From Aurantiochytrium sp. KH105 (Eukaryota > Sar > Bigyra > Thraustochytrida > Thraustochytriidae), in assembly GCA_003116975.1 (NCBI GenBank), contig BGKB01000025.1:248001-312000 (forward strand): a stretch of 64,000 nucleotides of DNA, in the 5' to 3' direction. The position numbers and the translations under genes are program-made. This document shows positions 26,401-56,443 of this stretch, piece after piece. Positions within the stretch are counted from its first letter, which is position 1; every line of letters starts with the position of its first letter. Under the pieces are notes generated by a model, which ran no database searches, was not told where the DNA came from, and saw only the letters and a list, made by a program, of their open reading frames with translations.

Positions 26401-26606
26401 AGGTTGAGGACGCTCTTTCGTTCGACCTGACGGAGGAGGGATACATTTGTCTTGCTCAGGGTACGCGCGAGTATTCGTCTTATGTGGAAGCGGAAGAAGA
26501 CCAAGAGGACCAGTCCTGCATTTTCCTTGCTTCTGCACCAGGAGATTTCCCTCTTTTGGTGGACTACAGCCGCCGTTCTGAGTGGTCAGTGTTTGTCGTC
26601 GTATAA
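14409..26606 (+). CDS. Giant cell-surface protein: nine TM segments plus a ~3,500-residue modular ectodomain
   Basis: 4065 residues in one uninterrupted frame; ATG at 14409, with 14442 as an alternative. Nine hydrophobic segments lie near residues 94-120, 135-157, 175-198, 217-239, 251-277, 288-313, 324-346, 453-475 and 491-519. This gives a cytosolic N-terminus and an extracellular C-terminus. Segments 5-8 have tetraspanin order, with a Cys-containing large loop ending in EACCQVL. The ectodomain then has: about six Cys repeats (NGIQDGDETGIDCGG type, 551-938); a basic string at about 1033-1048; four LamG/ConA-like repeats (about 1378-1986); a Thr/Pro repeat (about 2156-2466); an EGF-like module (about 2880-2925); and two hevein-like Cys clusters (about 3418-3546). 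There is no C-terminal anchor. Likely role is adhesion or cell-wall/scale attachment, by inference. Confidence 0.85.
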   Translation: MQGLTRRVSASMFKVAPGRIVRSAPAPQRHVPNDEEVEEYLENMRHIPPEKTGGKTAEARVRRLSKEQQSFRSRLLETSTPLTIAREHILKRWTHAYLVLKLALTALLAILLITFGFLGAKAAEENEVDQFAFKIMTTFGFLILFSSLLGIYGAGRVKRDLLKDDDGMGTPGQQMLEIFFHVSFAFNVMALPIAMAILTDRDAFLNDGAFGDMERFATAGASIILIVSIIMMLAMRRTIQIVTMYEMAHSFLESFSTLLVGVGVVGLLVAFSLLEFGQGLEDDSVDASIMTVLYVFISLCAMLIVLSVLGYGAALIEHIGMLKLHLASMAVLSVCIFAVIIAFASTDVEDIILSNCRSILQIMAEEWWQSVVACEKYGGSAMGAKIEIYDADTGFYSYVSSGVGTSAQCPLLNQTAFAWEYYVAANASSTVFEGCLNEACCQVLANHLLQHITMIVYGSIALFLCCMIAIRADWWLIKNTPPQRATVKLISRRQARMLLGLIAVIIVAFIVTFAVFFNDTTTRIDPQAIADQLALQAFNSSDASTVVGEEIHLCTNGIMDGNETGIDCGGSVALGGCQARCAVGRGCTSDSDCISGKCNSTSLVCRRETAWEQCNNGVRDGAETGVDCGGGTCRSLLLKMIDAGEIDEADEEADVNFLCSLREACSVDSDCASKYCDAGKCASCQDNRKNTDEGDVDCGSPRCIEYYETYPEDSPDMFVANGTSPAADDDGLCLDGRTCTSPSQCSSGVCNEEYGICVSCSNGIQDGDETGIDCGGKVCQRRCAVGEGCRQQYDCRTQRCTSNCSAGFCGDGVCESLFSESDLLNADLPDLASYTAISIDCTDGERSSHETDIDCGGSLCPSIGLTCEDGQSCTSHGDCSSALCYGGECVSCENGIQDGQETDIDCGGAVCSKRCARDKGCVEDDDCREGYFCWTNETYQYTLEMLAEQNLTDLLDDLELPEDVNTCQRVSNLTSEAQESAALTDGLTLDDCFVPAYEDSGPEQAAAQGNESSVDEDISDEESQTAEDSEVSARRRLSRRNRHSRRLTWGHQSSSGTYLYSFWPYFCKVVSSYTTEDDIRFEVEKLNDASVEVVANNEIVVTRSYGSGTPEIQIYPSSCSVSLADGVTITRTDSVSWLCKWLDLPSIRFVSLDISSTTTLQGSVVDVNGNPIENAYVRFWSSRKGSCTDSDARPQSCDDTNCNVFDSVYSSCSKDNADCCTWTEDEDLLVTSCTDGDASTTPLVDSTSDDGSFYVGIPTLDASSEAGGKFRLTYTVTHDEYMPSQGNLVIANLGDSVSLSNIQLTARPLSACSCASFEGSASNSEAKLCKNPVTAACALPGNDNSCASYTDREACDNTITAAPTSAPTAKPTALSLAKGNLVESSLITGSNYIVEFTIQLHAVHSDWRNVLLRGNSWNERSPAIWIYPDTPRLHIRFSTSYDFNEGCDPANLLTYDQEYLVRIEVYLNTVEVYIDNILSCSAALWGTLANTDVPLPLYVSSPDYEAASCTVGNLSFSEITDRPVPSPTPEIPRLTPGTIVDTLSLTRNWQFDMRITVYDTTSSWANVLHFGNDKWSERIWILWLVPGTTRLSVKVNTITSPDSGCESPQALTIGQTYDVHVEVFETRLELHIDGMLSCYRELLDANHASTGENLYVSGPWYTGAPVEVEDLTWSDITDRPTPPPTTIPQLAQGDWSQMVALEANWFLEFRVTLFAKTSDWSSVLHLGDENYNRGPGIWFYPGSSRLHVRTSLVDSRNAGCDPGEHLELGREYHVRLEFLGYTLSVYYDETAVCTQTFLSPFHVRGAQRLYISDPWYTPAKATVTDVVFGALANEATPAPTVALLPSGNKLFDVTLSTSWQLNFDLVVYQKRTVIAELIHVGNNAQERGPVVGLMPYSSALQIRVSTTEFWNDGCNTKRELELGRAYAVQVQLYAQEFFVKVDGVTLCRVSLSAPMIDFGSLPVWSASSWATPAYAQVSNVNFQDTPCDVCDEATIRVRCDNYFRFRQYEMVDGDYALVTTEHASGVYDFQDWRQTWTRTVSVTPDTRFEFECYDVGVVGGFAATVETCGETFRTDEDVVYSSGNRPFEFFVNPDKTDASDTSLVYIALGQGRWGSTSYGTAPLVDSSVMWIWNQEIWNTMTFGFNMGCQLPLTLAPTLAPTDPTAEPTQSPTLQPSTFPTSNPTQSPTRMPTLTPTLAPTDAPTTSPTPAPTPAPTRSPTNTPTDAPSDAPTASPTQSPTPPTRAPTDSPSAFPTRAPTPPTSAPTLAPTKSPTDAPTDAPTDAPTDAPTDAPTDAPTDAPTDAPTDAPTDAPTRAPTNAPTDAPTDAPTDAPTSFPTDAPTAFPTDAPTNAPTDAPTDAPTNAPTGFPTDSPTDAPTDAPTKSPTLAPTPPTVAPTLSPSLSPTMAPTPPTMAPTDAPTRSPTDVPTARPTSSPTEFPTLSPTLAPTQRPTAAPTLAPTAFPTPACGGTNPRLYVVAHFNDGADSRGYVQSSSGVEVVPSLHANASAGTVYMDLPSTGSGDDYSEYVLALDAMEVLSVGRYDQFLLKMSTTCKAEEDAALCASQTAAHVQIYLHDSTHGRFELFKGALGASNEVAVQLGDINPVLVANVDQVVIRTNHTVGTTTHVILDQISLWGCTTQKPTLQPTLAPTFAPVDWTIEPFTEIVVNIVSIDWITKLIEVIEGKVQEASETATGWTDFAFVNQFTAEWTETFDLEVDSIGDCVYDQEVMESTLALARCGSLVSSSNSSCEATLSVDGDVISVRIDLYIGSVRDAYLLDRRQTAPTYDTATSNFLTTLQSSVEGCWAAYASIEGPDDLEVTGTLVFEVSVQDHVNTGDESTSAQNVGKELEDALGGDALEKDQELMKDLPNAVNITVERCPASRLCSGNGVCCDAASQYTIDCSEEEFGKCICNDPWTGFDCSIYDPELTPTVAPTDAKCIPRESFGGEGASAAMLALCAAEGACQSNPLMCEYWKSIDYASAGITACEDGSWFEVFHQFDCRVTFNLGRTIINSLFDLRKMWRYDIGAETYLYYKYTSASLPENYSAYDMMLNEWSSMDGKHLINANFSLFASEVDAVNGTNAWQWSNYDDAVGFPRDARPIALQSNFDSTNQTWSAYVASFYYKWAKAHCTVTQHKTPVKEFSFSLCIPESESALASAVSSTSSAETSSESVTTYTVSGTIRDIQTGGGAEARVQLYRGRVAAWEGVTPLENVAATFLTTSVAADVGSDGLAGFTSCLSAMENDTATASDSTEDSVYIQSSTFQFDALAAGTYTVVISYESGLVGSTVLGAGAFTSRVDTFEVVDADVSLTFDIARSLPSNAILVVFESKMLGLDAVVEFSAAAGTTEEDSEVTTCVVSAKLLADGACSCGSAHLVRADSVLQDNGKATTVIYFSELYQTQYKLYLSRTDPVGTSVYKKHRDDGRCGPTYPLSSGEAARCPPVAVTWGDGIKALRPCCHILSGQCGSGDTFCGTRWSIDYRMFLDDAWMTQYRDDLLCNRPEQLYSSDGADDILAKCPEDAPCCSPQGKCGSLSYHCDSARSIDYREFYEEALEANETSQDAVEESETVISVYTASGLAESYTLPDPLVQLNYFDGHEYTAEEATASSTYMRAFCIDATATSPQLYEYPAPRYFEFKGQMLGMSSSCPAESDCNFAQITGMQAAFEREDGTYVPALSGIYLRRYEEQGGFKAYVGAYVDYDVTCRTAVTDPSDGVSRWYISVSPEDWDPASCIELCEEDDDCQVVATRQWIDSTTQEYKYRCSFHKNIHLCNGLYTVSTASSSSSYMVYRRRSSLAASGVWYSQLSSMFNDADDQVHLYRDETSNTWYMDNDLVPGNGHFALAVSSEDSEIPPSSPWRYVSSFAEKSTSAHTGSVSVLAFEEDCLVGGNFPTLNSTAENAGCECSSASSSYNCYGFTCSTMRLRIEGTDICLEGDASLSALMSNKCELGEIGQAFVFDTVSQQLEVRATNATDGTTVHYVVSEGFALTKVTSSSVEVEDALSFDLTEEGYICLAQGTREYSSYVEAEEDQEDQSCIFLASAPGDFPLLVDYSRRSEWSVFVVV
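18540..20365 (+). repeat. Four tandem LamG/ConA-like domain repeats inside the giant surface protein
   Basis: Four units of about 140-145 residues begin near 18540, 19010, 19480 and 19945. Each carries the pattern hydrophobic-strand, W..VLH.G, ER.P.IW..P....L, then N.GC...L..G..Y.V..E, then a short Cys (V.LSC type) and a Y(V/I)S.PWY-like end; the fourth unit is the most diverged. Linkers are Pro/Thr-rich (PTPPPT). The pattern suggests a beta-sandwich carbohydrate- or ligand-binding fold. Confidence 0.7.
20875..21805 (+). repeat. Thr-Asp-Ala-Pro (12-bp) repeat tract of the surface protein
   Basis: About 310 codons of Thr/Pro-rich sequence. The centre (about 21229-21570) is a nearly perfect 12-bp repeat encoding T-D-A-P; the flanks are older, diverged (T/S)-x-x-P variants. 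It probably forms an extended, O-glycosylated stalk. Such repeats mutate in copy number, so the length may vary between strains and may be collapsed in assemblies. Confidence 0.9.
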
Positions 26607-34888: not shown

Positions 34889-37800
34889 TTAGAAATAGCC
34901 GGGCGGATCAGGATCGAAGATTGCATTGTCGCCTTCATCCATGATGCCAGGCTTTGGCGAACGGGAAGCGCGCAGTAAACGTCTAGCGTTGTGTATGATT
35001 CGCTGCAGCGGGTTTTGCCGAAAGAACTCCTCTTCTTCTTCCTTGGCCTCAGCGGCTCGGATGGCCGCGACAAACTCCGCAAGCTCGAAGCGACGATCTT
35101 CTGCAATTTTGCGAGCCTGAAAACCGCGGAAGACACGCTGCAGGGCGATCGCGGCAGCCTCGCGCAAGTTTTCCAGCGCAATGATCTGAAGACGGCGAGC
35201 TGCCCAGGCAACCGCCGCGCGACGACCCAAATGACCTCGCGCGACACTCTGAATCTTGATGGCTGCAGTGGCCTCGCGCCTCGCCTGCTGAGCGCGTTTC
35301 TGAAGCTTTGCCCTCTCGTCCTCGAGTCGCTTTTCGACGCGTGCATGCCGCACTTTCTCGCCTGCCGACGCCTTTTCCATGGCGAAATCCATTGCGCGTT
35401 TCCGTCCTGCCACGTGCGCCGCGGTCGATTGCATCCGCTGGCGTTCCGCTGCAATAGCTGCAGCATCCATGCCAATTGAATTCGCTCCTCGCCGTCGGTG
35501 GTGGCTGCCTGGTCCGTGACGTCCGTCAAATCGCGACTTGCGCAAAAGCGTCATGGCACGAAAGTACATCAGCGTCATGGTGAAGATGCCAAAGCGAAGC
35601 ACATTCTCCGTCTCGTCGAGCTGGTGCTTTACGTCTGCCTTCATATCCACCGCCTTCTGACGGCGCTCTCTGCGCGCGACGCTGCGAGAGATGCTCGCCC
35701 ATTTCTCTGCGGGGGGCTCTCGGACATTTCCTGCATTGCCTTCGTTGTCATGATCGCCCGTGGCAGGCTTGAACACTTCCGAGTCACGCTCCCCAAAGAT
35801 CCAACCTTCCAACATAAAGTCGAGCACGCCGTCGATGAGTTCCTCCACAACTTCGCCACCCAAAAGACGCCCGCGCTCATTTTCAAGTGCCAAGACGACA
35901 TTTTGAGTCCATTGAACTTGCTTGTAGCCGTGGAGGGCCTTGGTTTCCACAAAGGCGCTCTTCGATGCGCACGCCATGTGCAGTTCCTCGTCGACAATCT
36001 GAAGCCTGATTTTCCTCTCGAGGGAGATAAGCTCCGCGTCAAGCTCGCGAAGGAGGTCTGTGCGCAGCATGCGCGAATTGCCTCCTTGTTTCACGCTGCG
36101 CGCCACAGTGCTCTCTACGAACTTCACGTTGACGTCAATTCTGCGGACGGCCTCGAGCTCCTTGCGCAGCTCCATTTTCCGCTCTTCGGTCTTCACAAGA
36201 TCGACGGGCGGCTGGTATGAGCACGGGCTTGTGTTGCATGCTTGGCAAAATGCGCGCTCGGCAGCCGCCTTGGCCTTGGCTGCGTTAATTCGCGCGGCAG
36301 TGCTATCAGGATCACCGTCGTCATCGCTCGCGTTACCATCATCTTTTGATTGGCGTTTCCGCGCCTTCGCATCGCCAACTTCATTGTCACCATCGTCGCC
36401 CTCGTCATTTTCGTCTCCATCGTCCTCCTCTTCCTCCTCGTCCTCCTCGTCGGAAGAACTCATCAGCTCAGCTAGGTCGTCTTCCTTTGTCGCCTGGGCT
36501 AAAATGAAAGAGTCTCGTTCCTTTCGTCGAAGCTCCTTCAAGATGAAGGTCTCCTGCTCCTTCACCTGCAGCAAAAGCAAACGATCAAGCTCTCGATTGA
36601 GCTCGTTTCGCAGAATTCGGATGGGGAAACGCTGCTCGGAACTGTGAAGGACAGAGGAGTCCATAAAGGCGTCCTCGCTCTCATTGGCGCGCTCAAGCTC
36701 TGCGAGAACCAAGCGACAGCGACGATCCACGTCGGTGACCACTTCGGCAGCTTTGACATCAAATGTCATCTTCTCGTGCCGAAGCATACGCGGTTCCCGG
36801 AGCATGGGTTCTACCAGACACCCCCGCTCAAGAGGGTGTGCGCGTTCTCGCAGCAGATGATGCATGATGATGGCCTTGGGGCCTTGCAAGCTCTCCGTTT
36901 CCGTAAACATGAGAGCAAGAAGATCTTCTCGGTTGCAAGTGCCCTCGGGAGCTTGCAAAATTGGATCCGGGTCCCCTGCGCGAATTGCGCTCTCCGGGTG
37001 CAGTATCAAGTACGCGTCCGACCAGCATGCGTCCGCGTTGCTCTGCTCACTGAGAATGTTTTCAATGGCCGTCTGAGCATTCTGACGATCGCGCTCCGCC
37101 GCTGCAGAAAGTTTGGCCGTTCGCGAAGCCACGCCCAAGGCAATTTCCTCCTCGGTGACCATGCCCATGCGTTTGAGAGCTGCAAGGCGGCTCGTTTTGG
37201 CAGCCTTTTCTTCGCGCAACTCCCTCTTGGCGTTGGCCATATCCGCTGTGCCCCGGCGGCAATCGTGATGTTCGGTTCGACGTGAGGCTGCGAGGCGAAC
37301 CCATTTGTCAAACTCCCGTTCGAGCTTGGATAGGTTTTTTGCGGTGCATTTCTTCAAAGTTTCCTCATCGATTTCAAAGTCTTCTTCATCTTGGCCCTTC
37401 TCAGGCGTGAAGCCTGGCCCAAGTTCCTCGCGTTCACGACGCTTCAGCAGGACTCTGGCAATCATAGCCATTTCATGCTCCAATGATTCGCAGCGGGCCT
37501 CTGCGTCCTTTACAATACCTGCCACAAGGCTAAGCTTACGTTCCGACAAGTACAAGCTCACGGTTAGATGCTCCGTGGCCTCGTCGATCTCAATGAGCCG
37601 ATCGTGCAGAGCGAGCGCTTCTGAACGCGCGTCAAATTCCACGCTCTTGATGGACTTGCACGTTTCTGCAAGGACAGTGATGGAGTATTGCGTTAGGGAT
37701 GCGGCGCCAACGACGACCTGGTATCTGCCGTGCTGGAGAGGAATGCCGTCTTCCTCTGGGTCATGAATAAGCGTGAAGCGACCCATGGCATCGCTTGAGC

Positions 37801-40800
37801 TGAGACTCACCTCGTGCGACTGGGAGCACACGCCGATGGGAATGGTCTCATTGAGGTAGAGCGCCGCGGAAAGCCTGCCATTTGCGTACCCGCGCTCATC
37901 AAAGCCACCCTTGTACACGACGTGCACTACAAGCTGAATAACGACGAGATCGTGAGGCATGAAGAAAGAATGCACGCGACCCTGTCGAAAGTTTAGAACC
38001 TGCTCGTCAACATGATAGAGCCGCGTCCACGAGTCGCGAAGCAGAACTGCCGTCTTATCGTCGTCAGCCTCGAGACGATCTTCCTCTTGTAGGGTAAGCC
38101 GGTAGTGTTCTGCGGAGTTGAAGACACGGTACTGCTTTTCGCCTTTGCGCCGCAGTCTCGCGTTGACACGATCGAGCCGCAGAAGCTCGTCTGGGTCATT
38201 GCCAAAGGAAAAACGCTGGATCAGCTGATACGCCCGCATCTGGGCAACACTCCGTATAAACGGTAGAGCGAGATTTAATTCTTCGGGAAGCTCGTAAAGG
38301 ACGTCGATGATCTCATCCGTGAGCTCCGTTGGCCTGTAGTGCCGATAGTTATGGACGTCTTCCTCCTCATAGAGCTCGGAGTAGCGGTTGATGCACATAT
38401 CGAGCGCGATCCATTCACGCTCATCTTGTGTCCTCGCCATTGGTGGTTTCCGGCGTACCTCACTGGCTAGATCGGCCTGAAACGTTTGTCTCGTGAAACC
38501 TGCCTTCTTGCCTGCACCGCCTTTCCTGTCACCACCTGCGGATTTGCCCATCGAAGAGCTAAAGACGAGATCATCTTGGTACTCATCATCTCCATTCAGA
38601 GCCCCACTCTGAAGCTTCTCCTTATTTGCCTCTTCCTCTTGCTGTTGTTGATAGTCTGCTTGAGCCTTTCGTTTGATTTCCCCTGAGCGAAAGAGAACGA
38701 GAGCGCCATTTATAAATTTGCGCTGCGCCACGACATTGGCGCGATCTCGCTGCAATTGGGCGAGTCGACTGTCAACCCGAGTGATGCTTTCTTCCTGGGA
38801 AGTGACCTCCTCAGCCATGTACTCGATACGCTCCGCAATCGTCAGGCGCTCACTCGTCAAGTAGTTGATCAGTTCCGAGGTCCGAATACGTTGCATAACA
38901 CCCGCCTGCCAAATGGAGCTGTCACAATACTTGGTGTCAATGTGCCGGCAGCGCTCGAGCTCATCTTCAATATCCTGCAAACGCGCTTGAGCAATCTCAT
39001 GGAGGCCTGTGATATTATGGTGTTGACGCACAGCCTCTTTGCGCCGAACACGCAACGATGCGTTTTCCTCGTCGAGCTCTTGTTGTAAACCTGCGAGGCG
39101 AGCGATCATATCGTCCATCTCATTTGCGCGCCGCTGCAGAATGATAGCGTCCGTCTGAATTCTGCTATTCACCTTGCTAATATCGCTTTGCATGTCTTTC
39201 AGCTTGACGTTGATGGCGTGAACCAGCGAGACGGTCTCATCTCGACTCTTGACCACATCCCCAAGCTCTGCGCTGGCCTGCTCAGCTTTACGCATCCGCT
39301 GTCGACTCGCTTTGCCTCTCGCACCCACGTGAGCAGTGGCGCGCAAAAGAATAATGGCACGCTCAAGCTCGGCAACGCGTTTGGCGCTTGTATCACGCTG
39401 TGCTTGGGTGTCCTTGATCTTTGCGAGAAGTGCCTGCGAATGTTCAATGTCAAGAGCCTGCCGTTGTGCGATTCGAATGAAGTCCAGACGAATCTTGGAT
39501 GCGCCGGATACTGAGCTGCCAAGAACAGCTGTCGTTTCCATGCCATCCTCTAGCGCGTTAATGGCCGCCTCGGCATCGTCGTCGAGAAGGACCTGCCGTG
39601 TAAGATATCGTTTCGTTTTCTCGCGCTCGAGCTTCCTCTTCACTTGGTCTTCCTCGCGCGCCTTGTCCGTGTTGCGAGCTTTTTGCAGCTCTTCAAGCCT
39701 CTCCTTCACCAAAGCTTGCTGCTTGATCCATCTCTGCTCTTCACGCCAGGTGCGTCGGAGGTCTTTCGAGAAACTATCAGCGTCCATCATCATGGATCGT
39801 TCCTCAGCCTCAGAAGGGCGATTTTTCCAAAATAGCTCCATGCGGAGTCGCTTGGCCTCCTTTTGACGCAAAGCTTCGCGCTCTGCCCTCTCCCGCTCAA
39901 TGGTTTCTCGAGATCGAGATCGAGCTCGAGCTTTGCCGCGCCGTTGCGCACCGGCCCGGGTGCTTAAGTCCTCGTCATCCTCGTCTTCATCATCATCGTC
40001 AGACTCCGAACTCGAGTCCGTGTTGGAGTTGTTGTGATGGCGGCCTTTTCGTCTGCGCTGTGAGCGATGACGGCGACTGTGGGAACGATCAAGCTCGGCG
40101 AGACCGTCGGCGTCCTCCTCCTGGAGAGATCCTTCAATGACCTGGCTTGGTGTTGCCGCTGCTTCCTCTGAATCTTTCGTTGGAGCTTCTGGGCCGGCAG
40201 GTGATGCAATTTCCTGTTCTTGCTTTTCGGCAATCAGCTGGATGTCATTAATGTTGCGGAGTATACCATAGATTTGGTCAAAGAGATTGCTCATAAAATC
40301 TTCGCGGGACGACCAAACATTGTGCCCGGCTTTGAGCCACATGACATGGTTTTGTACTTGGTCCTGGTGCCGAATGCAATCACGTAGCGAGCTAGAAACT
40401 GTACGCGGTGCACCACGCGTGTTCAGAATGGTCTCAACGTGCATGGGTAGCACGAGTCTACTTTCTGTAGACTGAATAAGGACCATGGGCACGCGAAGAA
40501 GATGAAGAGCACTTCGAAGGTCTAGAAATTCCGTTCGGAGACTTGCGATGATCCGCAACGCCTCGGGATGAACCTCTACTGCAAGCGATGATCGAGCGGC
40601 TCGGAGCAAGGTCCTGTCAACGTGAGCAAACCCGTTCACGTTGACAACAGCCTGCAAATTGGTACATTTTCGGTACGCGGCCATGTGCATGGCAACATTC
40701 GCTCCAACGCCAACGCCAGCGAGCACCCACGGCCGCTTTCGTCCCTTGCCTACACCAAGGTGATCCATGAGTCGATGCAGCCAGTTGGACAGGAGGACAT

Positions 40801-41866
40801 TGCTCGGAGGTATGGCTGCTGGCCGAGTGTCCTTGAAGAGGCTCACGAGGATAACGCGAAGCCCTTTTTGCGCGGTAGTCCGCGCGAACTCCCGCAATTC
40901 TGGTAATGGTTCCAGACAGTCTTCGACGAGGACGATGTCGACAAGATCTCGCACTGTGGATGAATAGACTTGAGCGTAGTCCTCAAAACTGAGATCAAGG
41001 CCGCCAGAGGAGTTCGCGTCAGCTTCTGCTTTGGAATTTCCGGCAGCAGAAGCCACACCATTCGCATCTTCGACGCGACCATTGCTCTTAGGAGTATGCG
41101 CGATTACATTTCGTAAACACTTTGCAAAGGTAACGTGCTCCGCAAAGCAAAAGGTCGGCAAGCGCAGACACGTGGGTTCGCGTTGCTTTGAGCGGGGTCC
41201 TCTTCTCTTTTTGGTGGGACTCGAAGGGGAAGACGAAGGGAAATTCGCTTTCGTTCGCGCAGCATGATCGTCTTCCTGATACAGCGCAAATCGAGCGGTC
41301 AGGCCCTTGATTGTGTGCTGCGGAGACCACGTGTTGAGGAAGTTGGTCAAGCGGTCGAGAACCTGCACCAGTTCAGGATCACTGCAAAGCGAGAACATCG
41401 GATAGTCGAGGGGGACCAGGTGCTTGGTTGGCGGCGTGTACCCTTGCACGCAGACGATTTGTCTTTGCCACTCGAGACTGCTGAAAACCTCAAAGAGTCG
41501 AGTCACGGACAGCTCCTCGCATTCACCCGACGCATACCAAATGAGGCATTGATTGTACGTAGTGCTCATTTTCAGGACAACGTCGAGAAGAACCTTGGGG
41601 TCGTCCATGGCTAGTAGTTCAAATGTTGCATCTCCAGAGGCCGCATCAGCGCGCATTAGTTTTCGTGGGGCGCCAGACTCATAAAGCAAGGTATCAGGAA
41701 TTGCGCAAGGAAAGTGTTCCTTGCCATCGTCGCCCTCGCTGCTGCTACCGCTATCGGCACCACGGGCCCTTTGCGCTTTCATAGTCCTGCACCATTTATC
41801 GCCTGCTGTCCAAAGCGCTCGAAGCACCCATAGGCTTGCTTCATTGTCTTCGAGGGTGTTGTCCAT
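34889..41866 (-). CDS. Large alpha/beta-hydrolase-like, coiled-coil and IQ-motif protein
   Basis: 2325 residues from the ATG at 41866. Residues about 300-560 look like an alpha/beta-hydrolase fold (LRVILVSLF, RPWVLAGVGVGANVAMHMAAY, VPMVLIQSTESRLVLP, WLKAGHNVW). At the nucleophile elbow (about residue 380) the usual G-x-S-x-G reads GVGVG, so the catalytic Ser is absent, while a His-containing AGH remains. Residues about 640-1160 and several later blocks are charged coiled coil (QRRANEMDDMIARLAGLQQE and similar). A beta-rich module near 1290-1410 separates them (VVIQLVVHVVYKGGFDERGY). Acidic and Cys-containing segments follow. Near the C-terminus are two IQ-type calmodulin sites: AAIKIQSVARGHLGRRA and AIALQRVFRGFQARK. 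Probably a cytoskeletal or axonemal scaffold; this is inference. Confidence 0.8.
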   Translation of the reverse strand: MDNTLEDNEASLWVLRALWTAGDKWCRTMKAQRARGADSGSSSEGDDGKEHFPCAIPDTLLYESGAPRKLMRADAASGDATFELLAMDDPKVLLDVVLKMSTTYNQCLIWYASGECEELSVTRLFEVFSSLEWQRQIVCVQGYTPPTKHLVPLDYPMFSLCSDPELVQVLDRLTNFLNTWSPQHTIKGLTARFALYQEDDHAARTKANFPSSSPSSPTKKRRGPRSKQREPTCLRLPTFCFAEHVTFAKCLRNVIAHTPKSNGRVEDANGVASAAGNSKAEADANSSGGLDLSFEDYAQVYSSTVRDLVDIVLVEDCLEPLPELREFARTTAQKGLRVILVSLFKDTRPAAIPPSNVLLSNWLHRLMDHLGVGKGRKRPWVLAGVGVGANVAMHMAAYRKCTNLQAVVNVNGFAHVDRTLLRAARSSLAVEVHPEALRIIASLRTEFLDLRSALHLLRVPMVLIQSTESRLVLPMHVETILNTRGAPRTVSSSLRDCIRHQDQVQNHVMWLKAGHNVWSSREDFMSNLFDQIYGILRNINDIQLIAEKQEQEIASPAGPEAPTKDSEEAAATPSQVIEGSLQEEDADGLAELDRSHSRRHRSQRRRKGRHHNNSNTDSSSESDDDDEDEDDEDLSTRAGAQRRGKARARSRSRETIERERAEREALRQKEAKRLRMELFWKNRPSEAEERSMMMDADSFSKDLRRTWREEQRWIKQQALVKERLEELQKARNTDKAREEDQVKRKLEREKTKRYLTRQVLLDDDAEAAINALEDGMETTAVLGSSVSGASKIRLDFIRIAQRQALDIEHSQALLAKIKDTQAQRDTSAKRVAELERAIILLRATAHVGARGKASRQRMRKAEQASAELGDVVKSRDETVSLVHAINVKLKDMQSDISKVNSRIQTDAIILQRRANEMDDMIARLAGLQQELDEENASLRVRRKEAVRQHHNITGLHEIAQARLQDIEDELERCRHIDTKYCDSSIWQAGVMQRIRTSELINYLTSERLTIAERIEYMAEEVTSQEESITRVDSRLAQLQRDRANVVAQRKFINGALVLFRSGEIKRKAQADYQQQQEEEANKEKLQSGALNGDDEYQDDLVFSSSMGKSAGGDRKGGAGKKAGFTRQTFQADLASEVRRKPPMARTQDEREWIALDMCINRYSELYEEEDVHNYRHYRPTELTDEIIDVLYELPEELNLALPFIRSVAQMRAYQLIQRFSFGNDPDELLRLDRVNARLRRKGEKQYRVFNSAEHYRLTLQEEDRLEADDDKTAVLLRDSWTRLYHVDEQVLNFRQGRVHSFFMPHDLVVIQLVVHVVYKGGFDERGYANGRLSAALYLNETIPIGVCSQSHEVSLSSSDAMGRFTLIHDPEEDGIPLQHGRYQVVVGAASLTQYSITVLAETCKSIKSVEFDARSEALALHDRLIEIDEATEHLTVSLYLSERKLSLVAGIVKDAEARCESLEHEMAMIARVLLKRREREELGPGFTPEKGQDEEDFEIDEETLKKCTAKNLSKLEREFDKWVRLAASRRTEHHDCRRGTADMANAKRELREEKAAKTSRLAALKRMGMVTEEEIALGVASRTAKLSAAAERDRQNAQTAIENILSEQSNADACWSDAYLILHPESAIRAGDPDPILQAPEGTCNREDLLALMFTETESLQGPKAIIMHHLLRERAHPLERGCLVEPMLREPRMLRHEKMTFDVKAAEVVTDVDRRCRLVLAELERANESEDAFMDSSVLHSSEQRFPIRILRNELNRELDRLLLLQVKEQETFILKELRRKERDSFILAQATKEDDLAELMSSSDEEDEEEEEDDGDENDEGDDGDNEVGDAKARKRQSKDDGNASDDDGDPDSTAARINAAKAKAAAERAFCQACNTSPCSYQPPVDLVKTEERKMELRKELEAVRRIDVNVKFVESTVARSVKQGGNSRMLRTDLLRELDAELISLERKIRLQIVDEELHMACASKSAFVETKALHGYKQVQWTQNVVLALENERGRLLGGEVVEELIDGVLDFMLEGWIFGERDSEVFKPATGDHDNEGNAGNVREPPAEKWASISRSVARRERRQKAVDMKADVKHQLDETENVLRFGIFTMTLMYFRAMTLLRKSRFDGRHGPGSHHRRRGANSIGMDAAAIAAERQRMQSTAAHVAGRKRAMDFAMEKASAGEKVRHARVEKRLEDERAKLQKRAQQARREATAAIKIQSVARGHLGRRAAVAWAARRLQIIALENLREAAAIALQRVFRGFQARKIAEDRRFELAEFVAAIRAAEAKEEEEEFFRQNPLQRIIHNARRLLRASRSPKPGIMDEGDNAIFDPDPPGYF

Positions 41867-43046: not shown

Positions 43047-46000
43047 ATGGGGTGCAGCGCGTCAGTGCAGGCGCCTGATGGTCCAACATCGCTTTCGAAA
43101 GGCGGATCTCCGCTGACCTCCAAACAAGCCATGGCGCAGATCCGTAAGATCGGTAAAACTGCTCCGCGAAAGAAGCTCGAAGAGGCTGGTACGTACGAGA
43201 TCAAGGTCGACGGGAAACTCGTGCCTTTGCCCTTTGCATACGTGTCCCAGACAGGTTACTACCCCGATGAGCTCGACAAAGCGAACCAGGATTCTCTTGT
43301 GACGCGAGAGGATATTGGCGGGAGAAACAAGGAGCTCGCCTATTTTGGGGTCTTTGATGGCCACGGGAAAGCAGGTGACCTGTGCTCCAATTATGTACGA
43401 GCAGAGCTTTGGGAGAATCTCGAAAATGAGCCTGCTTTTGCCGAGGGCGACCTTTTCAAAGCGCTGGTGGATGCGCATGTTCGTACCAACGAGGAAATGC
43501 ATGAGCAAGAATCAATGCAGGCCTTTTCGGATATGATGAGCGGGACAACTGCGATTTCCGCACTCTTTGAGGGCGACCGCGTGTTCATCGCAAATGTGGG
43601 AGATTCGCGCGCGATTGCCATTGTTGAGCATGATGACAAGCTGGTGTCCGTTCCATTGTCAATTGACCAGACGCCCTTTCGCAAGGATGAGCGCGAACGC
43701 GTCAAGCAGCAGGGTGCTCGTGTACTGACCATGGCGCAGATTGAAGGCTTTCAAGATCCAGACGAGGACGAATATGGCGATGAAGACGACAATGACGGCG
43801 ATCCACCGCGGCTGTGGGTTCAGCAAGGCAATTACCCCGGCACGGCCTTTACGCGGTCTCTGGGTGACCGTGTGGCTGAAACAATTGGAGTTCATGCAGT
43901 TCCGGAGGTTCTCGAACGGCAGCTTACAACCTCGGATCAGTACATTCTTCTCGCTTCGGATGGTGTGTTTGAGTTCATTACTTCGCAGAGCGTTGTGGAC
44001 ATCTTTAGCCGTTTCGAGCACGATTTGCTCAACGCCGCACGCGCGATTGTTGCCGAAGCATACCGCCAATGGTTGCAATTCGAGACACGTACAGACGACA
44101 TCACCTGCATTATTATTGATGTACGCAGACTGGGCCAGAGCCAGGTCAAGCTGCAGGAGCTGCTCAAGCGCAAGGGAAGCTACGGTGTCGAATTTCTCGC
44201 ACAAGAGATCAGATCGCAGCAAGTTCAGCATTCACCGGACCAGGCGCCCGCACCAGAAGCCGAGAGCGTGGACGCGGACCTCAGCGAGGCACATTTCGAC
44301 CCAGCGAAGCTTGTTCATCTCGCGTCCTTTCGCTTGGATCGGGGACGGTCTTCCCTTCACGTGGCCAGCAGTACTGGGGAGGCCACGGCTGCGACGAAGA
44401 GCGACAAGAAGGATGCCATGCAAGAGCGAGGGCCCGAGGCGTTTATGTCGATGGAGTTGCGGCCCGTCCGACGAAAGGTGGCCAACAACGTTGGTGTCGT
44501 GCACTTTGACCCGGCAGAGCTTGAGGGGTACGAGCTTCCCGTGCACGACAAGACTGAGCGCGAACTCGAAGAACTCGAGGAAGCCTTACGCTCGAACTAC
44601 ATGTTTGCGCACCTGAGTGAGGCCCAGAGACGTCGGGCAGCGAGCGCGATGCAAAAGGTCGAGGTGAGCGCCGATGACGTGATCATCAAGCAATTTGACA
44701 AGGGTGACCAGTTCTACGTAGCAACGAGCGGGCGATATGCAGTTGAAGTGGCGGTGAACAAGATGATGGAAGATTGTGCAGGCAAGATGATTCCCATTGA
44801 GGGCGAGTTTGAGGCGCCTCGCGAGATTATGGAGTACAATTGCGAGGGTGGATTCGCTCAGAGCTTTGGCGAGCTGGCTCTCATGTACAATAAGCCTCGT
44901 GCGGCAACGATCACGGCACGGAGCGACGGTACATTGTGGGCATTGGAGCGCAAGGCCTTTCACTCTGTGCTCATGCGCGACTCGGCTCATCGCCTGGTCA
45001 AGGTGTTACGCAAGGTCCAGGCCTTTAAATCGCTCACGTACAATGAAGTTGCGCGACTTGTGGACCTTCTCACAGAGTTGCGCTTCAAGAAGGGCGAGTA
45101 CATTGTGCAGCAGGGTGACTTGGGCGACTCCTTTTACGTCATCAAGCAAGGTCGCGCCAAGGTCACGATAGACTCGGGAGACGGGGAGGAGAAGGAAGTG
45201 ATGCGGCTCTCCGAGTACGAGTACTTTGGCGAACGTGCACTTTTGAACAAGGCTCCTCGTGCTGCAAACGTTGTTGCCACGGAGGATGTGGTTTGTCTGA
45301 TGATCCGCAAGGAGCTCTTTGACGAAGTGCTGGGTCGTCTTCAGAACGTCCTGGCCAATGATGCGCGAGAGCGTGAGGCCGCTGCCGAGCAATATCACAA
45401 TGTGAGCTCCCTCCAGGACCTCAAGGTCTTTCCCGGAAGCTTCCCCATCCATGAAGGTACCGTCTTTCGCGCGGCTGTTCGAGTAACCATTGGCGAGGAT
45501 ACGAGCAGGGTAAAGTTTGTCTCACTTCGACGCATCCTGCAACCCACGGGCGAGGAAGCTGGCGATATGCCTGCGCTCATCGCGAACGAGCTGGATATTC
45601 TCGGCAAGGTGGCCAAACCAACCTTACTGGCTCGTTTCGATAACCCGGACAAGCAAGACATCACCTACCAGGTATTTCAGCAAGAGTTTGTTTCGGACCT
45701 TGCAGCGCTCGTGTCAACGCGGCCCCTGGATTCGGCATCTCAAATGCTCAAGTTTGCGGTACGAAGCATTGGCGCTGGTCTTGTGCAGCTGCAGCAGCAC
45801 CGGGGTATTCTCAGCCGAGGCATTTCGCCTGAAGGCATTCTGCTCGACATCAACGGACAGCTCTGCATTGCAGACTTTCGCTATGCCAAGGTGACTGCGG
45901 GCTCGCGCACGTTCACGGCATGCGGAGTTCCAGAGTACATGGCTCCCGAAGTCATTTTGGGAACTGGCCATGGCTTTGCTGCAGACTGGTGGTCCCTGGG

Positions 46001-46370
46001 CATCCTCATAATTGAGGCCTGCACTGGGAAGAGTCCCTTTGGGGATATGCGTGAGCCAGATATGTACGCATCCATTACATCGCAAACGTTTATTCAAGAC
46101 TTTCTCGCGACGAAGCTGGGTGACGTGCACGGCCCCTGCAGCAAGCTCATTCGAGGTCTCTTGTCCTTCAATGCCGACTCGCGTTCGCTCTTTGTCCATG
46201 AGGACGAGATGGACAATGTGCCCTTCCTTGCTCGCATCAAGCTGCGCGACTCGCCTCTTTCGCAGGCCGCAAAGGAGATCGCTTCGAATCTCATGAGGGC
46301 CGAGGCCAACAGCAGCGGCAGTTCCTTGCTTGTGTCGCCCGTCCACAACAGCGCTGAAGGGCGCTTTTAG
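43047..46370 (+). CDS. PP2C phosphatase, two cyclic-nucleotide-binding domains and a PKA/PKG-type pseudokinase in one chain
   Basis: 1107 residues. The start MGCSAS suits N-myristoylation at Gly2 and palmitoylation at Cys3, so membrane attachment is likely. A PP2C domain spans about 60-360 with intact metal-site motifs: FDGHG (103-107), SGTTA (165-169), GDSRA (185-189), SDG (304-306) and DD (350-351). Two cyclic-nucleotide-binding domains follow, with FGEL...PRAA at 607-620 and FGER...PRAA at 727-740. The C-terminal AGC-kinase-like domain (about 780-1060) keeps TACGVPEYMAPEVI but has lost catalytic elements: HRD reads SRG (923-925), the catalytic-loop Lys and Asn are Ser and Gly, DFG reads DFR (943-945), and no glycine loop is evident. 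PP2C/PKG fusions are known to me from protists; a dead kinase half is the unusual part. Likely a cyclic-nucleotide-gated phosphatase. Confidence 0.88.
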   Translation: MGCSASVQAPDGPTSLSKGGSPLTSKQAMAQIRKIGKTAPRKKLEEAGTYEIKVDGKLVPLPFAYVSQTGYYPDELDKANQDSLVTREDIGGRNKELAYFGVFDGHGKAGDLCSNYVRAELWENLENEPAFAEGDLFKALVDAHVRTNEEMHEQESMQAFSDMMSGTTAISALFEGDRVFIANVGDSRAIAIVEHDDKLVSVPLSIDQTPFRKDERERVKQQGARVLTMAQIEGFQDPDEDEYGDEDDNDGDPPRLWVQQGNYPGTAFTRSLGDRVAETIGVHAVPEVLERQLTTSDQYILLASDGVFEFITSQSVVDIFSRFEHDLLNAARAIVAEAYRQWLQFETRTDDITCIIIDVRRLGQSQVKLQELLKRKGSYGVEFLAQEIRSQQVQHSPDQAPAPEAESVDADLSEAHFDPAKLVHLASFRLDRGRSSLHVASSTGEATAATKSDKKDAMQERGPEAFMSMELRPVRRKVANNVGVVHFDPAELEGYELPVHDKTERELEELEEALRSNYMFAHLSEAQRRRAASAMQKVEVSADDVIIKQFDKGDQFYVATSGRYAVEVAVNKMMEDCAGKMIPIEGEFEAPREIMEYNCEGGFAQSFGELALMYNKPRAATITARSDGTLWALERKAFHSVLMRDSAHRLVKVLRKVQAFKSLTYNEVARLVDLLTELRFKKGEYIVQQGDLGDSFYVIKQGRAKVTIDSGDGEEKEVMRLSEYEYFGERALLNKAPRAANVVATEDVVCLMIRKELFDEVLGRLQNVLANDAREREAAAEQYHNVSSLQDLKVFPGSFPIHEGTVFRAAVRVTIGEDTSRVKFVSLRRILQPTGEEAGDMPALIANELDILGKVAKPTLLARFDNPDKQDITYQVFQQEFVSDLAALVSTRPLDSASQMLKFAVRSIGAGLVQLQQHRGILSRGISPEGILLDINGQLCIADFRYAKVTAGSRTFTACGVPEYMAPEVILGTGHGFAADWWSLGILIIEACTGKSPFGDMREPDMYASITSQTFIQDFLATKLGDVHGPCSKLIRGLLSFNADSRSLFVHEDEMDNVPFLARIKLRDSPLSQAAKEIASNLMRAEANSSGSSLLVSPVHNSAEGRF

Positions 46371-52218: not shown

Positions 52219-52482
52219 ATGGAGGACGGCGCTGTCAAGGTGAACCTGGTGCCGGCGAATGCGCCCGTCTTGCGTGAGCGCGTGCTAACCTTCAAGGCGA
52301 ACGCGCGTGTCTATGACCTGCATCGCATGCTCCGCGAGCGACTCAAGCTGGAAACCCTTGTGCTCATCGTCGAAACGTGTTTCGCGCCTACTCTGGACCA
52401 GGAGCTCGGTGATCTCGCCAAGAACTTTGGGCGCAACGGGACCCTGCACATTACGTATGGCCCGCAGGCCGTCTTCGGATGA
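52219..52482 (+). CDS. ATG12: ATG12, ubiquitin-like autophagy modifier (minimal form)
   Basis: 87 residues from the ATG at 52219. The sequence covers almost only the ubiquitin fold. The C-terminal half (CFAPTLDQELGDLAKNFG, then GTLHITYGPQAVFG) matches the ATG12 signature (FAPSPDQEVGTLYECFG...L.L.Y....AWG in animals). The terminal residue is the Gly used for E1/E2 activation and conjugation to ATG5, so covalent conjugation should be possible; the usual Trp before it is Phe. The N-terminal extension found in most ATG12 proteins is absent. Expected role: ATG12-ATG5-ATG16 complex, which promotes ATG8 lipidation on autophagosome membranes. Confidence 0.9.
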   Translation: MEDGAVKVNLVPANAPVLRERVLTFKANARVYDLHRMLRERLKLETLVLIVETCFAPTLDQELGDLAKNFGRNGTLHITYGPQAVFG

Positions 52483-52678: not shown

Positions 52679-55600
52679 TTATGCCACCTTCGGCTTCGTC
52701 GCCGGTGGCGGTGGCGGAGGGAGCAACTTGGGTGACGGCATAAAGAGCGAGTGCGGCCGATTCCAAAGCATGAGCGCAACGAGCGAGCCAAGGTGGCCTA
52801 GACCGTCAACGACAAAGTCTTCAGCAGCCGCGGGGGCCTTGACATCCGCAGGATCTTCCACTTTCCCATCCGCAACAACCATCTTTTGCCGCTTTGCTGC
52901 GGGCACAGATGCTTCGTCGAGGTTGGTAATGGAATTAGACGGGGCCCTGCCTCTGGGATCTGCAGGAGCCCTTTTGAAGAAATTGTCAAATCGCAAACGA
53001 AGTTTACCATCCGGCGCAGCGCGGATGAGTTGTCCAAAGATGAGGTGATTCCTGAAAACCTTGGCATTGCCGACGACATACAGACCCTTGCGCGCTGCAG
53101 AGGCGGCAAAAATGCTGCGGCGTGGGTCGCCCATGAGATCATCCTGCAGCGTCGAGGTTCGTACGAGCGACATGAGGACAAAGCTCACCGTCTCACCAAC
53201 GTGCTCCTCGAACGAGAGAATGGCCCGCGGGAAAGGTAACGGCGGGTTCGTGGCGCGCGCGCGCGAGTGTAGAACATCTATAATAAGCAACTTTTGCGCT
53301 TGGTACGGTGTGAGTATGACAATCTCCTTGGGCGGGTATCCGAGCGCCAGCATGTAGTGAAAGAGAGCGACGACCCACTCGGCCTCTTCGAGGTTTTGTA
53401 CCTCTCCAGGGTGCGCAGTAACACGTTCCCGACCCTTGACGTCGATGAATTGCGCGCGAAGAGCAAAGCCGGGGTTTCTCTCCGTTGCCCCCGCGGCGCC
53501 GTCGCCATCAAGGAGCTTGTCGAGCGGGACGAGTGCCGGCGCAAAGTCGGCGAGACCAAAGCGCTCGTCAAGCGTTGCATTGAGCGTCTTGGGCATCGCG
53601 GGACGCTCGTAGCGAACACCGAGGCGGCAAAGCTTTTCAAAGAGAGAAGTCGTGGAGGAGCGCGGACGAGGCATCTCGCCCGTCCGGTCGCCGGCGACAA
53701 TCATGCGCGACAGCCGTTGGCGGTCCAGGCCTGCGAACATGAGCATCGCATCGCGCTCCAAAAGTCGTCCTGCGTAAAGAAAAATGATACGATCCATTCG
53801 AAGGCGCTTGCAGGGACCGTCCGTGTGAATGTACTGAAGCATGTCTTCCACGGCGGCAACAACAATTCGAGAATGGTCATGCAGAACGAAGTCCATTCGT
53901 TTGTTGAAGTCCCAAATGAGCTCCAGAAGACGATACGAGTTCAGCTCTTCAAACATGGCCCGAATCATGTACACTTCCCGCTTGTTGCGATTCTTTCGGT
54001 CATCGCGGGTACCAAAATAAAACGCAAAGGGGAACGGAGGAACCTCCTCGCTCGCCTCGTACGCTTTAAGCTCGGGCTGCACGTAGAGGCGGTAAAAGTG
54101 GAGCGCCGTCTCGCAGCTAAAGTGGCTGGCACCTGCGACGCCGAGGCCTGTGGCAATCTCCTCAACCTCGGCGAGCAGCTCGAGGCGTCTCTGAAGACAG
54201 GCTGCGATACGGCCCGAAATGTCAGGTCGACGCAGACGCGTAAAAGGATGCGCAGTCTCCTTGGCAAGGTACTGCACAAGCACGACGGCGTGCACTTCGT
54301 CTGGGACAACAATAAGAGTCTTGTCCGGATTTGGTCCTACGAGCTCTTCGACGATATCGCCAACAAAGGCATCACCGCTGTAGTGCATAAGACGCAAACG
54401 ATCGTCGGTGGCGCGCTGCAATGCCTTTCCGTGGCCCAAGAGAAAGTGTGCAAAGGCATCAGGAAGAAGCTTTTGCTCCGATGAGTCCATGAGCTGTTTG
54501 ATGAGCGCGAGCCCGACGCGCCGCGGCACATCGTTGGCCCACTTGCGACGCACTAATACGTATTGCTGCTGCTGAGGAGCGTTCTCATTGTGGATGGGTT
54601 GCTTGTCATTACAGATCCAGTGTAGCGACACGACGCCGCCGGCGAGGTCGACGCTGCGCACTTGGGCAGGATAAATGGCCGTCACACGGCAGCGATTCTT
54701 GGTTTTGGGGTCGAGTTCAACGGCACAAAGAACTACACTGAGCTGCGACACTGGCAAGCTTGCCCATTCGGCGACAATGGGTCTTGGTGTGTCGACAAAG
54801 CTGCACTTGACAGAGGATCGCGTCAGCAGCGAGCATGGCATGGCCATGCGGGCCCAACCGCCAAAAGAGATTTTGGTCGGGCTGCTTGCGTCTCCGCGGA
54901 CCGCGAGGAGCTCGAGCGCGCGACGAAGGTCGTAGGCCAGCGCGAAGCGAGCCTCTTCCATCATGTGCACGAGGTTTTCCTCAATCATGGCCTCTTCTGA
55001 AATGTGCTGCAGACGACAGGCGAGCGCCTCACGCACAAGCGTCGCGCGCGCGCGACCTTCGTTTTCGAGCTTGAGGAGATCGTCCTCGAAGGCGACGTTG
55101 CTTCCGCCTGGAAGCAAAAACCACGCCTTGGCGTCACCCTTGTCCTTGGTACATTTGCCAAACGGCTTCACGGGCCGGTGGGCTACCTGGAGCACCTTGG
55201 CCAGAAACGCCTTCGATTGCGGCGAGGTTAGTTCTTCTGGCTTGCAGCCATGCAGCGAGGGAACACGGCGCGTCGAGAGGCCCAAATAGTCACAGAGCGC
55301 CGCGAGCTGGTTCGCGTTGAGTGTTTTTGCAAGCGTGCCCTCCTCGTTAATGGCCACTTGCGCCTTTGACACGGGAAGAAAGGCAAGGTTTGCGTGGCTT
55401 TCGCTAAAGTGCCGGTCGAGGACGCGCTGGAGAAGGCGCACGCGCGCGGTGCGAAATCGCCGAACCTCCTCGGAGCGCTTGGTGGCGCACACGAGAGCTT
55501 GGTCGAGCTTTTCCAACAAAACGTGAGTGCTGTGATCGTCCGCGCTTACCTGCAGCTCGAGTCGCGCCACGAGACTCGCGTCTTCTACCAGAAGCGCGAG

Positions 55601-56443
55601 GAATCTACGGAGCATGGGAGACATGAGGCAGTTGGTGATGAACTTGAGGGCCTCCTTTCGAGCGCGCAGGGACACGCCAATGAGCGCGTGAGCAAAGACG
55701 GAACGCCAAAAACCGTGAATGTACTCCTTTTCGGAGTCATCGATGGACTTGGAGTTGAGCGTCTTCCATTGTTGGCGAAGGGCGGAACCTTGCTCGGAAA
55801 GGTGACGCGCGAGGCGCTCTTCGTCCACGAGGTTCCAGAGTTCGTGCGACGAGAGACGCAGCAAGGAGCTGCGAACAGATTGCAAGTCCATGCGCCCAAA
55901 GAACAGAGAAAACATGCCGAGGTAGGAGGTCGACACATTTCGCGTTTCGCTCGCGCGGGGATCGAGTTGCGTGAACTGCCGGACGACCCGCTGCACGTAA
56001 TCGGGGAAGACGGCGTGCTGGCTCATGCCTTGCACGAGAAGGGCCCTTTTACCCGAAGTAGCGTACCAAAGCAAGGCTACGCTTACATGGATAATGTCAG
56101 CGTGACATCCGTCAACATCTTTAGAAATGATGGGCCACAACTGCATCAAAAGAGCCTCCTCGCGGTCCAGCTTGGCGAGCACCTTGCAGTTCTTGGCGTT
56201 GCCCAGATCGATTCGCAACCACATGTCGACAATGGGGACGTCCTCCTCCTCCTCCTCCTCCCCCTCCGCCACCTCCATGGTCTTTCCATTCTTCTCCGAG
56301 GCCTCCTCGGCGCTGGCCTGCGTCTTGTGGCCGGGCTCGGCGGCGTCTTGGTCAGTCTCCATTGCCGCTCTCGCGGCGGCCGTGGCTGAACCCGCAGACG
56401 CGGCGCTCGCGCGGCGACGCTTACGAGCAGGCTCGCCCGCCAT
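52679..56443 (-). CDS. Aquarius (IBP160/AQR)-like protein with degenerate helicase motifs
   Basis: 1254 residues from the ATG at 56443; human AQR has 1485. Homology is visible in order. [10 protein letters not shown] near residue 550 corresponds to the AQR block [23 protein letters not shown] segment follows. [29 protein letters not shown] near 760-790 corresponds to [57 protein letters not shown] near 1030 and VLMSLVRT near 1095 match the C-terminal helicase lobe. The ATPase motifs are lost: the Walker A site (GPPGTGKT in AQR) reads YSGDAFVGD, the DEAA-like box reads FLYAG, GDHHQLPP reads GDRTGEMPR, and the final SRAR reads SAAR. Expected place: intron-binding part of the spliceosome, acting as a scaffold. 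Confidence 0.85.
   Translation of the reverse strand: [1254 protein letters not shown]

Follow-up and report, generated by a model that had tools for sequence, protein, structure and literature searches.

A 64,000 nt stretch of the Aurantiochytrium sp. KH105 genome, corresponding to positions 248001–312000 of contig C25 (BGKB01000025.1) and referred to below as the window, carries on its minus strand an open reading frame (ORF) at positions 52679–56443. The frame runs from ATG to stop, single and uninterrupted, over 1254 codons, exactly where an original prediction, made from the DNA letters, had placed an Aquarius (AQR) homologue that had lost its ATPase motifs. A search of solved structures with the full ORF gave 15 matches at E ≤0.001, the top six being AQR; the best AQR match scored 113.6 bits and the best UPF1 match 34.4 bits. 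AQR being by far the best PDB family, the ORF is, on these similarities, an AQR rather than any other SF1 helicase. The Pfam domain AAA_12 was found above cut-off in the second RecA domain (residues 992–1128, E 1.7e-13), while Aquarius_N_1st, at residues 87–418, scored slightly below its cut-off (E 6.3e-6, 25.9 bits; cut-off 26.6). Residues 51–539 aligned weakly to chain 9l5r in the full-length search (i-Evalue 0.036). When residues 70–560 were used alone, no PDB match was obtained at E ≤10, indicating that the N-terminal half is much diverged. The features of the locus are as follows (window coordinates, with the evidence in brackets):

52679–56443, minus strand: predicted AQR orthologue without ATPase motifs, single-frame ORF of 1254 aa (ORF, PDB, Pfam, whole-genome protein search)
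55190–56185, minus strand: N-terminal region matching Aquarius_N_1st, residues 87–418 (Pfam, sub-cut-off)
54836–54865, minus strand: AQR-type block, residues 527–536 (motif reading, chain comparison)
54356–54397, minus strand: place of motif I (Walker A), where the reference reads MVVGPPGTGKTD (spacing from TLIV)
54278–54319, minus strand: place of motif Ia, where other letters stand for the reference TLIVTHSNQALN (placed by the shared TLIV)
54080–54214, minus strand: conserved AQR block including FSCETA, residues 744–788 (PDB alignments)
53756–53797, minus strand: place of motif II (Walker B), FLYAGR for MEEAAQ (AQR alignments)
53666–53701, minus strand: place of motif III, reference GDHHQLPPV (AQR alignments)
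53156–53221, minus strand: place of motif V, reference DKYQGQQNDF (AQR alignments)
53072–53128, minus strand: place of motif VI, reference VALSRARLGLY, first Arg lost (AQR alignments)
53060–53470, minus strand: RecA2 remnant, AAA_12 match, residues 992–1128 (Pfam, E 1.7e-13)

Five different AQR chains with solved structures, from four species because two are human, served for comparison with the protein; 8ro0, 8xi2 and 9l5r we take to be from C. elegans, Chlamydomonas and a fungus, respectively. The AQR-type 10-residue block of the KH105 protein lies at residues 527–536; at the equivalent place the human chains, 8ro0 and 8xi2 have F-x-GWARMA, and 9l5r has FAGFSKMALP. A conserved AQR block begins at residue 744, with FSCETA at residues 775–780; SLVRT occupies residues 1092–1096, and the blocks common to spliceosomal AQRs span residue 744 to about 1134. 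All the AQR-specific blocks originally quoted as kept were therefore found in place. The protein shares these RecA-region blocks with human and C. elegans Aquarius (IBP160, AQR, EMB-4), the SF1 helicase of the intron-binding complex; a trace of Aquarius_N_1st, the finding of one gene, and the presence of the partner genes SYF1 and ISY1 in the KH105 genome are further points of likeness. It differs, however, in its length (1254 aa vs 1485 in the human chain), in its much diverged N-terminal half, and in the replacement of motifs I, II, III, V and VI.

All five reference chains carry GPPGTGKT, MEEAAQ and SRAR; their motif III reads GDHHQLPP (GDHYQNSP in 9l5r) and their motif V contains QG. The reference alignment for motif I was made with a borrowed P-loop lobe, and those for the other motifs with the RecA part. 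In the KH105 protein GPPGTGKT is replaced, the place of the P-loop being residues 683–696; motif I was positioned by its spacing from a shared TLIV because the stretch itself gave no significant alignment. The Walker lysine, which is K829 in the 5mqf chain (counted along the alignment row), is missing: the stretch between residues 674 and 707, in which it was expected, is free of lysine. Motif II reads FLYAGR (residues 888–893) in place of MEEAAQ, LY standing for EE. Motif III reads GDRTGEMP (918–925) in place of GDHHQLPP and motif V HVGE (1081–1084) in place of YQGQ, each with loss of the Gln, while motif VI reads SAAR (1115–1118) in place of SRAR, with loss of the first Arg. Still in place are GD in motif III, G in motif V and the second Arg in motif VI. 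Human AQR Y1196 aligns with a Gly in the KH105 protein.

The replacement of Walker A, the Walker B/DEAA box, motif III and the last Arg motif, as first read from the letters, was thus confirmed against the five AQR chains. The original prediction had considered that an intact P-loop might lie elsewhere in the protein; a scan for GxxxxGK[TS] found none in the KH105 protein or its allele. A P-loop hidden by a frameshift was also rejected, since no G-initial match appeared when the gene and about 1.5 kb on each side were scanned in all six frames; the two matches to [GA]-x4-GK[TS] were both A-initial and not P-loop-like. The two assembled haplotypes agree on the motif loss, making a sequencing error an unlikely cause. 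The P-loop and the catalytic acids of an active SF1 (UPF1-like) helicase are therefore both absent from the KH105 AQR, for which SF1-type ATP binding or hydrolysis would hardly be possible.

The 76-Mb assembly contains its loci in pairs. The counterpart of the window on contig C71 aligned in four collinear blocks with 94.7–96.1% identity, a relationship that fits, as expected, two haplotypes of one diploid. The AQR allele on C71 has an open frame of 1250 codons. Over 1250 aligned codons the two alleles showed 84 nucleotide differences (10, 10 and 64 at the first, second and third codon positions) and 19 amino acid differences, giving a dN of 0.0067, a dS of 0.0756 and a dN/dS of 0.089, values that compare two alleles of one genome and do not represent long-term rates. 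Nonsynonymous and synonymous codon differences numbered 4 and 1 in residues 1–75, 5 and 20 in residues 76–420, 3 and 15 in residues 421–700, 0 and 21 in residues 701–1159, and 7 and 8 in residues 1160–1254. Under neutrality, 21 random changes in residues 703–1159 would all be synonymous with a probability of about 1e-11. The remnant RecA core is the most constrained part of AQR between these alleles. The relaxed selection and broken frame of a pseudogene were not observed (dN/dS 0.089, both haplotypes open): the AQR ORF is not decaying, and its frame is held by purifying selection. Selection on the frame had been proposed at the outset, and a ratio far from the relaxed value of ∼1 agrees with it. 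Over the 16 ORFs measured, dN/dS ranged from 0.012 to 4.7, the top two values belonging to two ORFs antisense to AQR (53294–54484 and 55394–56389, plus strand). These were rejected as real genes: each has a shorter counterpart in the other haplotype, and first codon positions account for 22 of their 24 varying sites.

The genome was then considered as a possible source of a second AQR. A whole-genome search with the AQR protein gave eight matches at E ≤0.1. Two were the alleles themselves (100% and 98%); the remainder lay at the UPF1 (26.6 bits), DNA2 and SMUBP-2 loci and covered residues 997–1140 only. AAA_12 had 18 matches in the genome, forming nine pairs that include the AQR gene. From each of the remaining eight pairs one member was read, and all eight possessed a G-x4-GK[TS] P-loop. 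UPF1, SMUBP-2 and DNA2 were recognised among them by their own Pfam domains and the other five showed helicase-type domains only, with no Aquarius domain at E ≤1e-5 in any of the eight. AAA_11 had 26 matches, which fell without exception in these eight pairs; the AQR gene had none. The Aquarius_N_1st profile had no match across the whole genome; since even the known gene went undetected and the control genomes gave no match, this result speaks only against a more canonical copy. No relatives of AQR were found in viral contigs. The original prediction had left two alternatives, a paralogue or the only AQR of its lineage. The protein, AAA_11 and AAA_12 searches revealed no intact AQR, so a paralogue beside an intact AQR seems unlikely, while the second alternative stands, just two alleles being found in the assembly.

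Genes for U2 and U6 are present at at least two places each. Two cyclophilin loci, picked for their broken matches, contain two and three GT-AG introns of 89–128 bases, which were chosen by eye and whose excision yields open cyclophilin frames. The genome encodes the intron-binding complex partners SYF1 (an open frame of 868 residues) and ISY1 (279 residues). Six places were examined out of 39 cyclophilin matches; PPIL4 was found there, its gene matching PDB chain 7qtt_V over almost its full length (346 bits), while PPIE was not identified among the six. From this gene content, splicing looks active in KH105. The suggestion that the lineage has few introns gains only indirect support: 12 genes (AQR, the eight helicases, SYF1, ISY1 and PPIL4) matched as single long frames, some of them cut by the fetched stretch, but real GT-AG introns exist. 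No match to Mago nashi, a component of the exon junction complex (EJC), was found in the whole genome. The same search matched no control genome either, so that loss of the EJC from KH105 is suggested as a possibility and not proven. A weak UPF3-type domain, UPF1 and introns are present. Magoh and Y14 were absent mainly from intron-poor species in a published survey, as it is described in PMC5862402.

The most plausible explanation, to which we assign a probability of roughly three in four, is that the sole detectable AQR of KH105 is now a pseudo-ATPase that serves as a scaffold or clamp on SYF1/ISY1, its ATP step having become dispensable or been shifted. In humans, AQR joins SYF1 and ISY1 in the intron-binding complex and powers the second part of catalytic activation through its ATPase. 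In KH105, selection would have retained the RecA fold and the AQR-specific surfaces while SF1-type ATP use was lost. The protein would still dock on SYF1 and ISY1 in the intron-binding complex, and near U2 it would act as an intron clamp or a scaffold. The second step of catalytic activation, which is driven by ATP, might then be dispensable, or be performed by PRP2 or another helicase. The structural role first proposed for this AQR thus gains support from selection and gene content, and would follow from conservation. Against docking counts the N-terminal half, which by itself had no solved-structure match at E ≤10. In addition, the dominant-negative P-loop mutant K829A is described as stalling the spliceosome in human extracts (PMC10208982) and, by analogy, harm should be expected from an AQR that is dead yet still docks, unless the machinery around it has been altered. 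In KH105 release must proceed despite a dead AQR in the docked position, which requires a change in the interfaces or in the reach of PRP2. Such altered interfaces would agree with the strong constraint on the remnant core, although that constraint does not demonstrate them.

Loss of the motifs, the diverged N-terminal half and the lack of a Mago match would also suit an AQR that has left the spliceosome and whose RNA-binding and scaffold surfaces are reused, for example in snoRNA or R-loop handling. The retention of SYF1, ISY1 and PPIL4 in the genome, and of the blocks common to spliceosomal AQRs from residue 744 to about 1134, makes this departure unlikely. There is even less to be said for an unconventional nucleotide-binding or ATPase site that replaced the canonical one and left the protein an active motor: the zero amino acid differences between haplotypes in residues 701–1159 and the survival of GD in motif III and of the second Arg in motif VI would agree with such a site, but the Walker lysine, the motif II acids, the glutamines of motifs III and V and the first arginine of motif VI were lost together. 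Finally, that the ORF is a divergent paralogue or a recent pseudogene, with a true motif-intact AQR elsewhere in the genome, is very improbable in spite of the extreme divergence of the N-terminal half and an assembly in 367 contigs of unstated completeness, since the protein search returned two alleles with UPF1 (26.6 bits) as the next match, the 18 AAA_12 and 26 AAA_11 matches included no intact AQR, purifying selection is strong, and the same gene would need to be absent from both haplotypes.

If the KH105 AQR is a pseudo-ATPase, a parallel may exist in Cwf11, the fission yeast AQR (PDB chain 3jb9_X), which at 1284 aa is also short. Masking the borrowed P-loop cost the five AQR chains 17.8–18.7 bits and Cwf11 only 4.5, drops that include flanking residues because the alignments retreat beyond the masked stretch. 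Swapping motifs V/VI to the 8ro0 letters, in a query two residues shorter than its unswapped counterpart, raised the five AQR chains by 30.8–33.3 bits and UPF1 by about 21, and gave Cwf11 nothing (53.3 to 53.1). Judged from these scores alone, its residues being unread, Cwf11 is most likely also without a canonical P-loop and motifs V/VI; the likeness to KH105 would thus extend to the motifs, in a lineage that we assume to be distant. A passage of the review PMC4830896 treats Cwf11 as a spliceosome component and speaks of 'the Aquarius(Cwf11) ATPase', in conflict with the score result, and a sequence check is therefore needed. Strains of fission yeast with cwf11 deleted are described as viable, and the deletion is termed a known splicing mutant (PMC4210515). 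Given Cwf11, the KH105 AQR may not be the first motor-less case. No report of an AQR having lost its ATPase motifs was found in the titles and abstract starts of open-licence literature.

Utp25, of the SSU processome, belongs to a helicase family other than that of AQR. It resembles the KH105 protein in being described as a pseudohelicase within a large RNP (PMC9539457), although the machine is other than the spliceosome. Kinetoplastids are reported to splice without AQR, their PRC complex (SYF1, SYF3, ISY1) being of the intron-binding type and operating without the AQR ATPase (PMC8682746); AQR is wholly missing there, whereas KH105 keeps it as a probable dead enzyme. Budding yeast, too, splices without AQR according to PMC10208982.

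The two ATP-dependent activation steps, by PRP2 and then Aquarius, are presented in PMC10208982 as what 'might be a universal mechanism', with PPIL4 as part of a 'molecular brake'. A eukaryote with introns, SYF1, ISY1 and PPIL4 but only a motor-less AQR under selection would be a natural counter-example, and the KH105 AQR lets the structural role be tested apart from the ATPase. A broader proposal, which we put at slightly below even odds, is that activation proceeds in KH105 without an Aquarius motor despite the PPIL4 brake, AQR acting as a passive clamp and the second step falling to PRP2 or being dropped; Cwf11 would have decayed independently, two-ATP-step activation would not be universal, and the conserved role of AQR would be structural.

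Several other ORFs of the window deserve mention. Directly downstream of AQR and convergent with it lies an 87-aa ORF (52219–52482, plus strand) that, by eye, resembles the ubiquitin-like protein ATG12, for which it is presumably a candidate. The ORF at 43047–46370 (plus strand; 1107 aa) combines a PP2C phosphatase, two stretches of cNMP-binding type and a protein kinase, and is thus a phosphatase-kinase fusion. Two long single ORFs are also present: one of 4065 aa at 14409–26606 (plus strand), with a between-haplotype dN/dS of 0.08, and one of 2325 aa at 34889–41866 (minus strand), with a dN/dS of 0.13 and an IQ-motif score above cut-off.
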